Both the position numbers and the translations under genes were made by a program. Of a stretch of DNA of 11,441 nt, positions 1 to 11,441 are shown piece by piece. The notes beneath the pieces were generated by a model. It worked only from the letters and a program-made list of their open reading frames with translations. It did no database searches and was not told the origin of the DNA. Source of the DNA: a bacterium (GTDB taxonomy: Bacteria; BMS3Abin14); NCBI GenBank assembly GCA_029210545.1, contig JARGFV010000084.1:1-11441 (forward strand), in the 5' to 3' direction. The first letter of the stretch is position 1. Each line of letters starts with the position of its first letter.

Positions 1-65
1 GCGCCTCTCCCAGGCGCGGCTGCTTTCATCGGTCATCGATCCGGGCGCCCTTCCCAGGCGCGGCT
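1..65. repeat. Tandem GC-rich hairpin units, cut by the window edge
   Basis: Two successive units each consist of a GCGCC...GGCGC palindrome (arms 1-6 and 12-17, with a CTCCC loop; then about 47-51 and 59-63) followed by a linker related to TCATYGATYYGG. A third palindrome at 80-97 continues the series and belongs to the hairpin element at 67-122. The first unit begins at base 1, so the array may extend to the left. There is no coding signal. It resembles REP/BIME-type extragenic palindromes, but that is analogy; no family is recognised. Confidence 0.5.
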
Positions 66-66
66 T

Positions 67-122
67 GTCATTGATTTGGGCGCCCCGCGCGGGGCGCATT
101 GATGGCTTTTTGCGAAGTCATC
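67..122 (+). repeat. Partial copy (A) of the five-hairpin element
   Basis: Read on the plus strand, this matches the minus-strand reading of 8263-8341. It has the arm GTCATTGATTT (67-77), the 18-nt perfect palindrome GCGCCCCGCGCGGGGCGC (80-97), and a hairpin with arms 101-108 and 115-122 closed by one G-T wobble. The other copy has A and T where this one has G and C in the palindrome, so pairing is kept. Hairpins H4 and H5 of the full element are absent. It lies about 90 nt downstream of the uvrB stop. Confidence 0.7.
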
Positions 123-4008: not shown

Positions 4009-4030
4009 CCCGAAATCCGCGATTGTTTTG
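4009..4030. repeat. 22-nt repeat downstream of livG (copy 1)
   Basis: Matches 8559-8580 at 21 of 22 positions; the shared core is CCCGAAATCCGCGATTG. It lies about 65 nt past the livG stop codon, while the other copy lies about 95 nt past the livF stop codon. No function recognised. Confidence 0.55.
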
Positions 4031-4064
4031 CGTCAGCAGGCAGCTGATCGTCGGGATGCCAAAG

Positions 4065-4091
4065 TTGATGGACTCGCAAAAAGTCCATCAA
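4065..4091 (-). repeat. Solo hairpin of the repeat family, just past livG
   Basis: A perfect 10-bp stem TTGATGGACT / AGTCCATCAA (4065-4074, 4082-4091) around the 7-nt loop CGCAAAA. It starts 3 nt downstream of the livG stop. The GGACTTTTTGCGA core (minus strand) recurs in hairpins H1 and H5 of the element at 8263-8419. It could act as a transcript-end hairpin, but only CTTT follows it, so it is not a classical U-tract terminator. Confidence 0.6.
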
Positions 4092-4094
4092 AGT

Positions 4095-4883
4095 TTAACC
4101 GGCGTAGGAGGAACCCAGGTAGGCTTCGATAACCTTCTTGTCCGTGCGGATCTCCTGGGGTCTGCCCTCGGCGATCTTAACCCCGTGGTCCAGGACAATG
4201 ATCCGGTCGGAAATACGCATGATAAGTTTCATGTCATGTTCGATCAGGAGGATGGAAACACCGCTCCTGCGGATCGTCTCGATGAGTTCCATGAGACGCT
4301 CGGTCTCCTGGGGGTTCATACCCGCAGCCGGTTCGTCAAGGAGCAGAAGGAACGGATCGGTGGCGAGGGCCCGGGCGATCTCGAGACGCCGCTGTGCCCC
4401 GTAGGGAAGGTTCTTGGCGTGTTCGTTGACAAAATTACCCAGCCCGACGTTGTGGAGAAGGGTGTAGCTGTCAGATACGATCCCTTTTTCTTCAGCCCTG
4501 GTCCTGGGGCCCCTGAAAATGGCGCCCAGGACACCGGCCTTTGTCCTGCAGTGACGTCCCACCATGACGTTTTCGAGGGCGGTCATATTCTGGAACAGGC
4601 GGATGTTCTGGAAAGTCCGCGCCATCCCCTTCGAGGTGATCTTATTCGGCTTGAGACCGTTGATCCTGTCAGCTTTTTTCCCGGGGGGGATAAGGTTTAT
4701 GTCACCGCCCACAGGTGGATAGATCCCGGTAATACAGTTGAAAAAGGTGGTTTTTCCGGCCCCGTTGGGCCCTATGAGCCCGACGATCTCACCCTGCCTG
4801 ACGGAAAGGTCCACCTGGTCCACAGCCTTGAGACCCCCGAAGGTCATGGTCAGCGCTTTTATGTCGATCACTTTTTCGGACAT
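4095..4883 (-). CDS. livG: Branched-chain amino acid ABC transporter ATPase LivG
   Basis: One of two cytoplasmic ATPases powering the LIV-type importer; it pairs with LivF beneath the LivH/LivM channel. In 262 residues one sees Walker A GPNGAGKT (38-45), Q-loop FQN (91-93), the LivG-style signature LPYGAQRR (159-166) in place of LSGGQ, Walker B LLLLDEP (179-185), the H-loop His in IEHDMK (about 216) and a C-terminal EAYLG typical of the family. The length is near the usual 255. The ATG follows AGGGAG by about 11 nt. It begins 18 nt after livM, so it is co-transcribed. In many genomes livF follows directly; here it does not and is found at 8676-9383 instead. Confidence 0.96.
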   Translation of the reverse strand: MSEKVIDIKALTMTFGGLKAVDQVDLSVRQGEIVGLIGPNGAGKTTFFNCITGIYPPVGGDINLIPPGKKADRINGLKPNKITSKGMARTFQNIRLFQNMTALENVMVGRHCRTKAGVLGAIFRGPRTRAEEKGIVSDSYTLLHNVGLGNFVNEHAKNLPYGAQRRLEIARALATDPFLLLLDEPAAGMNPQETERLMELIETIRRSGVSILLIEHDMKLIMRISDRIIVLDHGVKIAEGRPQEIRTDKKVIEAYLGSSYAG

Positions 4884-7109: not shown

Positions 7110-8240
7110 CTACTTCTGCTCAACATATTCGCCGTTAACGACCTTGTACATGGAGAAGCCGACACCGATGGCATCGCCCTTCGCGTCGAAGGAGATGGAG
7201 CCCACGGGAGTATCCACGTACTCGCTGCGCAGGACCTTCTCGACGGCCGTATACTCTGTGGAGCCGGCCTTCTGGATGGCGTTTAGCAGGGCCAGTGTCG
7301 CGGCGTAACCCTCCTTGAAGAAAGCGCCGGGATCCTCACCGTACTGGGCCTTGTGGGCCTCGACCGCGCTCTTGTACATGGGCAGGTCGGAAACGTCCAT
7401 GGGGCCGGAAGCGTAAACGCCCTCTGCGAACTCGCCGGCCACCTTGATGAAGGTCACGTCCTTGACCCCGTCGTCAGACACGAAGAAGGTGTTCATCTGT
7501 TTCTTCCTCATCTGTGTGACGATCTTGGAGGCCTCGGGGTGGTACCCGCCGTAGATGACGGCCTCGGCGCCTGATTTCGCGATCTTCTGAACGATGGCGC
7601 TGTAGTCAACGGCGCCGGGGGTAATTCCCTCGAACAGGACGGCTTCCGCGCCCTCCATCTCGTCCAGGTACTTCTTGGCGAACTCGGCGTAGCCCTTCCC
7701 GTAGTCACCTTTGTCGTGAATGACGGCGACCTTTTTGGCGCCCAGCTTGTTAACGGTGAATTTCACGCCGAGCATGGCCTGCATGTCATCGGAGGCGATG
7801 GTTCGGAAGAAGTTCGGGTAGTCACCGCTCTGGGTCAGGTCCGGGTTGGTGGCCGAGGGGGACATGACGATGATCCTGGCGTCGTTGTAGATGCCGAGAG
7901 CCGCCTTTGTGGCCCCTGAGCAGATGTGGCCCAGGACGACGACGGCACCATCGGACACCAGCTTGGTTGCCGTGTTGGTGGCAACTTCAGGCTTGCAGAC
8001 GTCGTCCTCGACGAGAAGCTCCACTGGCCTTCCAAGGATGCCGCCCGTGGCGTTGATCTCCTTGACCGCCAGTTCGGCCGCGCGAACGGTCGGTATGCCG
8101 TAAGAAGCCAGGTCACCGCTGTGCGGACCCGCAACACCCAGTTTGACGGGCTCTTTAGCCGCTTCCTTTTTCGCGCACCCGGTGATCATGAGGGCCATGG
8201 TCATCATGGCAACGACAGTGATACAGAAAAACCTTCTCAT
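7110..8240 (-). CDS. livK: Branched-chain amino acid binding lipoprotein (LivJ/LivK type)
   Basis: Captures branched-chain amino acids and delivers them to LivH/LivM. 376 residues from the ATG at 8240, which has an excellent AAGGAGGTG site 5 nt upstream; an in-frame extension to 8315 would translate the hairpin element and is rejected. The signal MRRFFCITVVAMMTMALMITGC has a lipobox ITGC, with Cys22 as the predicted lipidated residue, so it is membrane-anchored, unlike the free periplasmic E. coli protein. The mature part resembles LivJ: KLGVAGPHSG (33-42), a Cys pair C82/C107 in the positions of the E. coli disulfide, SPSATNPDLT (127-136), YGGYHPEA (230-237) and SDDGVKD (255-261). The ligand range is inferred from these motifs; a related amino acid or amide is possible. 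Its leader carries a five-hairpin element. Confidence 0.94.
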   Translation of the reverse strand: MRRFFCITVVAMMTMALMITGCAKKEAAKEPVKLGVAGPHSGDLASYGIPTVRAAELAVKEINATGGILGRPVELLVEDDVCKPEVATNTATKLVSDGAVVVLGHICSGATKAALGIYNDARIIVMSPSATNPDLTQSGDYPNFFRTIASDDMQAMLGVKFTVNKLGAKKVAVIHDKGDYGKGYAEFAKKYLDEMEGAEAVLFEGITPGAVDYSAIVQKIAKSGAEAVIYGGYHPEASKIVTQMRKKQMNTFFVSDDGVKDVTFIKVAGEFAEGVYASGPMDVSDLPMYKSAVEAHKAQYGEDPGAFFKEGYAATLALLNAIQKAGSTEYTAVEKVLRSEYVDTPVGSISFDAKGDAIGVGFSMYKVVNGEYVEQK

Positions 8241-8254: not shown

Positions 8255-8262
8255 GAATAATT

Positions 8263-8419
8263 GATGGCTTCGCAAGAAGTCCATCACCGCACCCCGCGCG
8301 GGGTGCCCAAATCAATGACCCGCATCATAAGTCATTGATTTGTAAGGAAAGGGAAAACGACGCTTTTCCCTTTCCGTGGAGCGAAAAGTCCCGGATTGGA
8401 CTTTTTGCGACTCTATCAA
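8263..8419 (-). repeat. Five-hairpin modular element (copy B, complete) in the livK leader
   Basis: Five consecutive inverted repeats cover most of 157 nt. H1 8263-8285 has arms GATGGCTTC and GAAGTCCATC with one bulged base. H2 8289-8306 is the perfect palindrome GCACCCCGCGCGGGGTGC. H3 8309-8341 has 11-bp arms AAATCAATGAC / GTCATTGATTT. H4 8346-8375 has 12-bp arms GGAAAGGGAAAA / TTTTCCCTTTCC. H5 8381-8408 has 11-bp arms with one G-T pair. Part 8345-8419 recurs inverted at 11367-11441 with 74 of 75 identities, and 8263-8341 recurs partly at 67-122. No coding capacity. The element lies between livF and livK and is probably transcribed as the livK leader. The family is unrecognised; it is REP/MITE-like by appearance only. 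Confidence 0.8.
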
Positions 8420-8558
8420 TAATGGAACCCCCAGTTTGCGGGCTGGCAGATCTCCCCTGCTGAAGGAAACCAGAATGAGTATTCGTCTGAATCAGCTACT
8501 TTGCAGATGAGCCTATTAACTATCCTGTACTTTTGGTGCAGTCAATATAAACCGTACA
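8420..8558. other. Intergenic stretch with no recognisable feature
   Basis: Between the hairpin element and the 22-nt repeat. An 11-codon plus-strand reading frame starts at 8474 (MSIRLNQLLCR) behind an AAGGA-like site, but it is too short to support as a gene. No convincing promoter for livK or for a rightward RNA was found. Confidence 0.4.
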
Positions 8559-8580
8559 CCCGAAATCCGCGATTGGTTTG
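8559..8580. repeat. 22-nt repeat downstream of livF (copy 2)
   Basis: 21 of 22 positions match 4009-4030. It sits directly in front of the GC-rich hairpin at 8584-8613. Confidence 0.55.
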
Positions 8581-8583
8581 GGC

Positions 8584-8619
8584 CGGCCTCCGGTCGGGGC
8601 ATCGGAGAGGCCGTTTTTT
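8584..8619 (+). terminator. Rightward terminator-like hairpin with T6
   Basis: The arms CGGCCTCCG (8584-8592) and CGGAGAGGCCG (8603-8613), with a 2-nt bulge, are followed by TTTTTT (8614-8619). The polarity suits a plus-strand transcript, yet no plus-strand gene is present. On the minus strand (livF direction) no U tract follows the hairpin. It could end an unannotated small RNA, block antisense transcription into livF, or be a repeat remnant. Confidence 0.4.
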
Positions 8620-9644: not shown

Positions 9645-10391
9645 TTAATAATATACCTCCATCAGGGTCAGCCCCTGGGGCGGCGCTTTTGGGGGTGCGT
9701 TGTCCCGGGACAGATTTTCCAGAACGGTTTTGACCTTGTCAGGCGCCATCCGGCCAAGGCCCACCTGCACCAGTGTACCAGTGATGTTTCGAACCATGTG
9801 TTTGAGAAAACCGTTGGCTTCGAACATTAGCGAGATGCGGTCACCATCCTTTTCGATATCCAGTCTTCTGAGGTTCCGGACGGTGGTGGTCTCGTCTCCG
9901 GCGGATTTGAAGGACGTGAAATCGTGTTCCCCGCGCAGGAACGAGGCACCCGAGTTCATCTTCACCAGGTCCAGCGGGGACCGGATATGCCACACCCGGA
10001 ACCTGTCGAGGGCTGTGGGTGTCGGGCTGTTGAGGATGGCGTACCGGTACAGTTTACCCCTGGCGCTGCGCTGGGCGTGGAAGGTGGGCGGGACATCCCC
10101 GCAGTCCAGGATCCTGATGTCTCTCGACAGAGAGCTGTTGAGCCCCATGGCGATGTTGACGGCCGGGATCTCCTTGGGAACCTCCGCGTGGGCAACCTGT
10201 CCGATGGCGTGGACGCCGGCATCTGTCCGTCCGGAACCGATGAGCTTCACAGGCGCTTCCATCATCCTGGCAAGGGCTTCCTGTACCTCACCCTGAACAG
10301 TCCGCATTCCCGGCTGGACCTGCCATCCCGAAAAACCGGTTCCGTCGTACTCGAGGAGGAGCCTGATCCTCCTCACCTTTGAATCCCCCAT
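9645..10391 (-). CDS. truA: tRNA pseudouridine(38-40) synthase TruA
   Basis: Cytoplasmic enzyme that isomerises uridines 38, 39 and 40 in the anticodon stem of many tRNAs. 248 residues from the ATG at 10391; IRLLLEYDGTGFSGWQ begins at residue 9, as is usual. The catalytic Asp57 lies in GSGRTDAGVHA (52-62). The family also shows Tyr115 in KLYRY, HDFTSF (156-161), FLKHMVRN (195-202) and a C-terminal ALTL-like PQGLTLMEV. A GTG at 10457 would add 22 residues and overlap the ecfT stop by 8 nt. That arrangement would couple translation, but the extra N-terminus is unlike the family and neither start has a good ribosome site. It follows ecfT by 58 nt. Confidence 0.96.
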   Translation of the reverse strand: MGDSKVRRIRLLLEYDGTGFSGWQVQPGMRTVQGEVQEALARMMEAPVKLIGSGRTDAGVHAIGQVAHAEVPKEIPAVNIAMGLNSSLSRDIRILDCGDVPPTFHAQRSARGKLYRYAILNSPTPTALDRFRVWHIRSPLDLVKMNSGASFLRGEHDFTSFKSAGDETTTVRNLRRLDIEKDGDRISLMFEANGFLKHMVRNITGTLVQVGLGRMAPDKVKTVLENLSRDNAPPKAPPQGLTLMEVYY

Positions 10392-11259: not shown

Positions 11260-11265
11260 GGGTCA

Positions 11266-11293
11266 GTCCAAGGTCCAAAGTCCAAAGCCCAAA
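11266..11293 (+). repeat. Four-unit heptamer array, GTCCAAA type, upstream of ecfT
   Basis: Consecutive 7-mers GTCCAAG, GTCCAAA, GTCCAAA and GCCCAAA. It is the inverted counterpart of the array inside uvrB at 262-289. It occupies positions where the ecfT Shine-Dalgarno would be expected. Confidence 0.75.
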
Positions 11294-11366
11294 GAAAGAT
11301 CCTGATTTTTCATCTAAGGTCCTTTCTCTGGGCTCTGATACGATCTGTAAGTTCTTGTCATCAACC

Positions 11367-11441
11367 TTGATAGGGTCGCAAAAAGTCCAATCCGGGACTT
11401 TTCGCTCCACGGAAAGGGAAAAGCGTCGTTTTCCCTTTCCT
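11367..11441 (+). repeat. Inverted copy (C) of the hairpin element, cut by the window end
   Basis: The reverse complement of 8345-8419 over all 75 available bases, with one difference (TAGGG for TAGAG). It contains complete H5 and H4 hairpins. The remaining modules should lie beyond the window. With copy B it forms an inverted pair around livF-truA-ecfT. Confidence 0.8.

Follow-up and report, generated by a model that had tools for sequence, protein, structure and literature searches.

A five-hairpin MITE inserted in a livK leader, its probable IS1182-like partner and signs of selection on its fold

Introduction

Bacterial MITEs are usually seen as deletion derivatives, with nothing to keep their interior from decaying. 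Correia/NEMIS, ERIC and RUP are bacterial MITEs with structured transcripts, and RUP has been tied to an insertion sequence (IS) via its ends (PMC2229807). The element that we describe here, in the 5' leader of a livK gene, resembles them in its length (100-200 bp), its lack of coding sequence, its terminal inverted repeats, its target duplication and its mostly intergenic location, and transcripts of all of them would make stable stem-loops. However, those elements are for the most part A+T-rich, with TA at their ends, whereas ours targets AAnnTT and has a probable IS1182-like partner. It also differs from them in its five covarying hairpins, in an apparent preference for one strand and in its presence in several genera, with covariation having been measured for this element alone.

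IS1272, which belongs to the IS1182 family, is reported to replace stem-loops and to make no duplication (PMC5678879). Our element shares with it a related partner transposase (DUF772 plus DDE) and a near-palindromic target, but the IS clade in question duplicates 6 bp and scores under the NCBIfam cut-off. REP/BIME sequences, which are linked to RAYT transposases, are likewise short palindromic units of high copy number found between genes; our element differs from them in having target duplications and DDE-type ends and no RAYT association. In the open-licence literature, we found no description of the end sequence of the element and nothing on MITEs in Desulfobacterota.

The element in the livK leader

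We analyzed an 11,441-nt stretch of DNA (hereafter the window) from a 2.72 Mb metagenome-assembled genome of 241 contigs. A sequence-only reading had placed five consecutive hairpins on the plus strand upstream of livK, and reading the sequence again gave exactly the same coordinates for all of them: H1 8263-8285, H2 8289-8306, H3 8309-8341, H4 8346-8375 and H5 8381-8408. The extent first given for the whole, 8263-8419, holds at its start but not at its end, which lies at 8417. The element is thus 155 nt long (8263-8417, plus strand in the orientation of the covarying strand), with limits defined by terminal repeats, target duplication and empty sites. H1 is the left terminal inverted repeat, and its first 18 nt match the ends of IS1182-like elements. 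The right terminal inverted repeat occupies 8398-8417 and reads inward on the minus strand as GATAGAGTCGCAAAAAGTCC. Terminal inverted repeats of the form GATGGACTCGCAAAAAGTC... are present, and the commonest left end in the host, GATGGACTCGCAAAAAGT, is identical to the right end, GATAGAGTCGCAAAAAGT, at 16 of 18 positions. Immediately outside these ends, the 6-mer AATAAT stands at 8256-8261, with a seventh base, T, at 8262, and is repeated at 8418-8423 as the right target-site duplication.

As had been noted, the element is non-coding: it sits between livF and livK, upstream of the latter (7110-8240, minus strand; branched-chain amino acid binding protein). Its covarying plus strand is antisense to livK. 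The livF-livK region is collinear, element-free and provided with the same ribosome site in two relatives, L031 (isolate PFL40) and L032 (isolate SZUA-204), and this comparison indicates that the window copy is an insertion within the livK 5' leader. On the far side of the insertion, a promoter-like site, TTGACT-17 nt-TAGTTA (8517-8545, minus strand), was recognized by eye and is conserved in L031 and L032; a consensus scan did not list it, and the same scan gave the element no sigma-70-like promoter or terminator of its own. The element had not been recognized as a known riboswitch, and a search of Rfam agrees with this, with 0 matches at gathering score in the window and the best weak hits far under the cut-off.

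The fold energy of the element is well past chance expectation, with z about -8. Specifically, the minus strand folds as RNA at -77.5 kcal/mol against a mean of -45.9 for dinucleotide-preserving shuffles (z = -7.9, 0/200), and the plus strand folded as DNA gives z = -8.1 against shuffles.

Copy number, distribution and target sites

Element copy numbers in the host are lower bounds. Using a 171-nt region as query, we found at least 40 full-length places with 90-100% identity among 360 host candidates, and the terminal-repeat core occurs 307 times in the host, compared with 0 for a reversed control. A covariance model, the search that the sequence-only reading had proposed together with a copy count, finds 152 or more in the host; 150 candidates were scored in each genome, which makes the highest counts floors. 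Ten relatives in the same family carry the element as well, with 11 to at least 152 copies each (G003, at least 152; G004, at least 150; G006, 133; G005, 123; G010, 90; G011, 66; G009, 40; G007, 30; G008, 25; G002, 11), while G001, also a family relative, has no covariance-model match. Neither of the outcomes that had been named as speaking against a mobile repeat, a single copy or a known Rfam or IS family, was found. The exact H4 pattern occurs 152 times in the host and is present in 10 of 12 family genomes and in 0 of 278 genomes of other families, and searches of plasmids and of viral contigs returned no element copy. Several host contigs, like the window itself, terminate in or beside an element copy, showing that the assembly breaks at the repeat.

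Copies are uniform in size, 126 of 138 aligned copies being 150-156 nt long. An exact 6-bp duplication flanks 20 of 41 host copies and a 7-bp duplication a further 3, compared with 3.5% when right flanks are shuffled; duplications of 5 bp or 8 bp were seen in 0 of the 41. The duplicated target has the form AAnn(n)TT, that is AAnnTT or sometimes AAnnnTT, and a G often comes directly after it. Sufficient flank was available for 66 copies, and 64 of these lie between genes. In G000:C154 (L175 about 2061-2207), a copy breaks the reading frame of another transposase, possibly of IS4/IS1634 type.

These properties are those of a MITE: terminal inverted repeats, a duplication of fixed length, orthologous empty sites, and a short sequence (155 nt) without transposase at many loci (at least 152 copies). 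Its ends are also common to an autonomous element, agreeing with IS relics at 13-17 of 18 positions and with an intact IS of Desulfosarcina widdelii at 13-14 of 18. Copies, ends, duplications and empty sites all bear out the earlier suggestion of a repeated, non-autonomous, mobile palindromic element.

An IS1182-like transposase as the probable partner

A DDE_Tnp_1 family search uncovered in the host an IS1182-like gene of 520 aa (L151 2776-4338), with GATGGACCCGCAATTAGTC on one side and GACGGCATCGCAAAAAGT on the other, so that the earlier idea of looking for another transposase with similar ends yielded an IS1182-like DDE element whose ends nearly match. Relics in G009 and G007 have the ends GACGGACTCGCAAAAAGT and GATGGCTTCGCAAAAAGT, adjoining AATAAT and AAGGTT. 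Compared with the MITE end, the best relic ends agree at 17/18 (G009), 16/18 (G007) and 15/18 (host) bases; overall, four of five relic ends agree at 15-17 of 18 and the fifth at 13. The host gene lacks about 73 residues that the decayed G007 copy retains, and this stretch in G007 holds the motif RAGVEATMSYLNRKTGVKRLRVRG at the expected place of the catalytic Glu. The assembled host genome contains no intact transposase of this clade, and G003, with its large complement of copies, has no detectable relative of the transposase. Other PF01609 transposases of the family were considered as partners, and none is bracketed by element ends; one of them, in L175, has the element inserted within it. 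A stretch in G004 (L138 5129-6030, G004:C6) was considered as an autonomous transposon and rejected, its inverted end motifs 2 kb apart being those of two element copies. There, an HD-GYP-like ORF lies between two partial or full copies of the same orientation and may be a passenger or a chance neighbor.

An intact related IS is present in the complete genome of D. widdelii, in three identical copies. It encodes a 582-aa protein with 48% identity to the host protein over 439 aligned columns. Its ends are GATGAACGCGTAAAAACTCAC and GATGGTCCTGTAAAAACTCAC, and the three copies are flanked by the duplications ATAATT, AATTTT and AAATTT. The D. widdelii copies establish the ends of the clade and its 6-bp rule independently of the MITE. 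The partner proteins contain DUF772 plus a DDE domain. For the D. widdelii protein, the IS1182 model is the best match and nearly full-length (NF033551, E = 2.4e-41); the IS1182-like proteins score 116 and 142 bits against an NCBIfam cut-off of 270, and we therefore call them IS1182-like. Together these data add to the known transposases an IS1182-like clade with a clear 6-bp duplication rule.

Two Desulfobacterota loci, L041 6441-6607 (167 nt) and L093 19162-19338 (177 nt), hold related MITEs with the matching end type GATG..TCGTAAAAAGTC and AAnnTT-like duplications, and with structured cores unrelated to ours. As the end type is common and the cores differ, the five-hairpin core is lineage-specific and the end type wider.

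We infer from these matches that the element is mobilized by the IS1182-like transposase, and consider it very probable that it is a MITE moved in trans in this way. The transposase would recognize the terminal repeat starting GATgGACTCGCAAAAAGTC and insert the element at AAnnTT, sometimes AAnnnTT, duplicating 6 (7) bp. The sequence-only reading had instead compared the element to REP/BIME, whose hairpins would be what a Y1 (RAYT) transposase recognizes in single-stranded DNA. The element is indeed hairpin-rich, intergenic and of high copy number, a strand-specific structure would fit a single-stranded DNA intermediate, and the host has two Y1 genes. To our knowledge, however, Y1 transposition makes no target duplications, and it is the IS1182-like DDE transposase that is indicated by the element's ends, by its duplications of 6-7 bp and by the related IS copies. 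Y1/RAYT genes are few overall, and none of 14 Y1 loci, taken with as much as about 1.5 kb of flanking sequence, is bracketed by element ends, as the earlier comparison would have it, with the element core nearby in 2. Nor does the presence of Y1 genes follow that of the element, since they are absent from the element-rich G006 and G007 and present in the element-free G001. The comparison is already mostly refuted, and we regard a Y1 mechanism as extremely improbable. That insertions replace pre-existing stem-loops, as for IS1272, rather than duplicating a short target, is only marginally more credible and still very improbable: the transposase family is shared with IS1272, the AAnnTT targets are near-palindromic and solo hairpins exist, but exact 6-7 bp duplications flank half of the host copies and 3/3 of the D. 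widdelii IS copies, and no obvious stem-loop has been lost at the empty livK site.

Covariation and strand asymmetry of the core

We aligned 85 copies, taken from L031 and eleven genomes of the family, on the five named helices, which comprise 45 pairs. The helices are paired in 95.1% of cells. Double changes that keep pairing are found at 20 of the 45 pairs, in 123 cells, compared with 10.0 pairs and 29.7 cells after shuffling (0/500); when the partner is slid as a control, double changes never exceed 10 pairs and 25 cells. By helix, compensatory changes affect 4 of 7 pairs in H2, 6 of 11 in H3, 4 of 12 in H4 and 5 of 11 in H5. H4 has in addition an extra pair inside its loop, outside the named structure, which is T-A in 42 of the 85 copies and C-G in 41. 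For a parasite of this kind, it is unusual that mutations in both arms preserve the hairpins from one related genus to another.

Changes within pairs also differ between the strands. Tree parsimony on 119 copies, with counts resting on a single tree, gives 76 events from Watson-Crick to G-U and 34 to A-C, about 2:1, whereas composition-corrected transition rates in the loops predict 1.03:1 (p = 7e-5). In the 85-copy tree, counting internal branches only, the ratio is 19:4. Without the loop-composition correction the test is weaker (p = 0.15 with 85 copies, 0.035 with 119), and among the host's own 34 copies alone the asymmetry is absent (G-U 2, A-C 4) and the minus strand has a slightly better fold. 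Since a G-U pair becomes A-C when read on the opposite strand, it is apparently the folding of the window plus strand that counts. Internal branches represent ancestors of copies that were still spreading afterwards, and on them changes that keep pairs outnumber those that break them by 35:8. Terminal branches have 68:61, a difference with p = 0.001, or 0.009 when the 119 copies are used. Double changes, strand asymmetry and the contrast between internal and terminal branches support the view that the fold is under selection.

Two explanations do without a role of the fold in the spread of the element. Template-switch correction of imperfect palindromes is a mutational process that preserves perfect palindromes without selection, and it would also yield double changes. 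It is, however, strand-symmetric and would not favor G-U over A-C as counted above, and it would not gather breaking changes on terminal branches, and we therefore hold it to be unlikely as the source of the paired changes. The element could alternatively be a cis-regulatory RNA that benefits the host as a leader, terminator or mRNA-stability element and has spread by transposition; the sequence-only reading had proposed reuse as a structured 5' leader. Its location in the livK leader stands, with the ribosome site on one side and the conserved promoter-like site on the other, and strong covariation and strand asymmetry would suit such a role. A regulatory use is less secure. Using gene calls from a simple codon model, we found no preference in orientation relative to the flanking genes: of the 66 copies, 15 run with both neighbors, 23 run against both and 19 are mixed, with the remainder unassigned. 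A leader or terminator acting in cis would be expected to prefer one orientation, so this counts against a cis role. Moreover, the covarying strand is antisense at livK, relatives retain livK without the element, and breaking changes accumulate on terminal branches. A cis role that benefits the host is less likely than a role of the fold in its own amplification, and we consider it more doubtful even than template switching.

We favor the reading in which a single strand of the element, most likely as RNA, needs its fold for the element's amplification, and from the substitution patterns we put this somewhat short of an even chance. The plus strand would fold while single-stranded, and selection would favor copies that keep amplifying rather than a per-copy job for a neighboring gene; at livK, the copy was inserted into the 5' leader, where it would affect the gene incidentally if at all. 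Stated in full, that the MITE encodes a one-strand RNA whose five-hairpin fold is needed for multiplication, a selfish RNA under compensatory evolution across the genera of the family, the proposal is more tentative still. The interior of the element changes like an RNA gene in hundreds of copies, with little sign of use by neighboring genes. If confirmed, this would mean that a non-coding transposon can bear its own functional folded strand, and it would provide a tractable system for asking what part a fold of this kind plays in transposition.

Other copies and repeats in the window

The element had also been noted in other gaps of the window, and we find it in three. A second copy (11369-11441, minus strand; flank AACCTT at 11363-11368) is cut by the contig end; the arms of the 75-nt pair are 99% complementary. 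A longer variant with an extra hairpin (1-122, minus strand; flank ACATTT at 123-128) is cut by the contig start. This longer subtype is also assembled in L151 at about 10180-10370, and in both places an additional GCGCC...GGCGC hairpin splits H3; the variant at the window start has more repeats of this unit before the contig ends. The third is a solo H1 (4067-4089, plus strand), a 23-nt remnant flanked by AAAGTT at 4061-4066 and 4090-4095. Solo H1 remnants with duplications are also found in L150, and there are four candidate sites in the host; they look like products of deletion between short ATCAA repeats, those following H1 and the right end.

Two further repeats were observed. Degenerate CTTTGGACTTTGAACC / TTGAACC-type repeats lie near gene ends, in the window at 261-283 and 11265-11287 and in the flanks of L006, L116 and L193; several element insertions fall inside them, probably because AAnnTT sites occur there. 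A 29-nt direct repeat, CCCGAAATCCGCGATTG.TTTG (86%), lies outside the element in the intergenic gaps 4009-4037 and 8559-8587.
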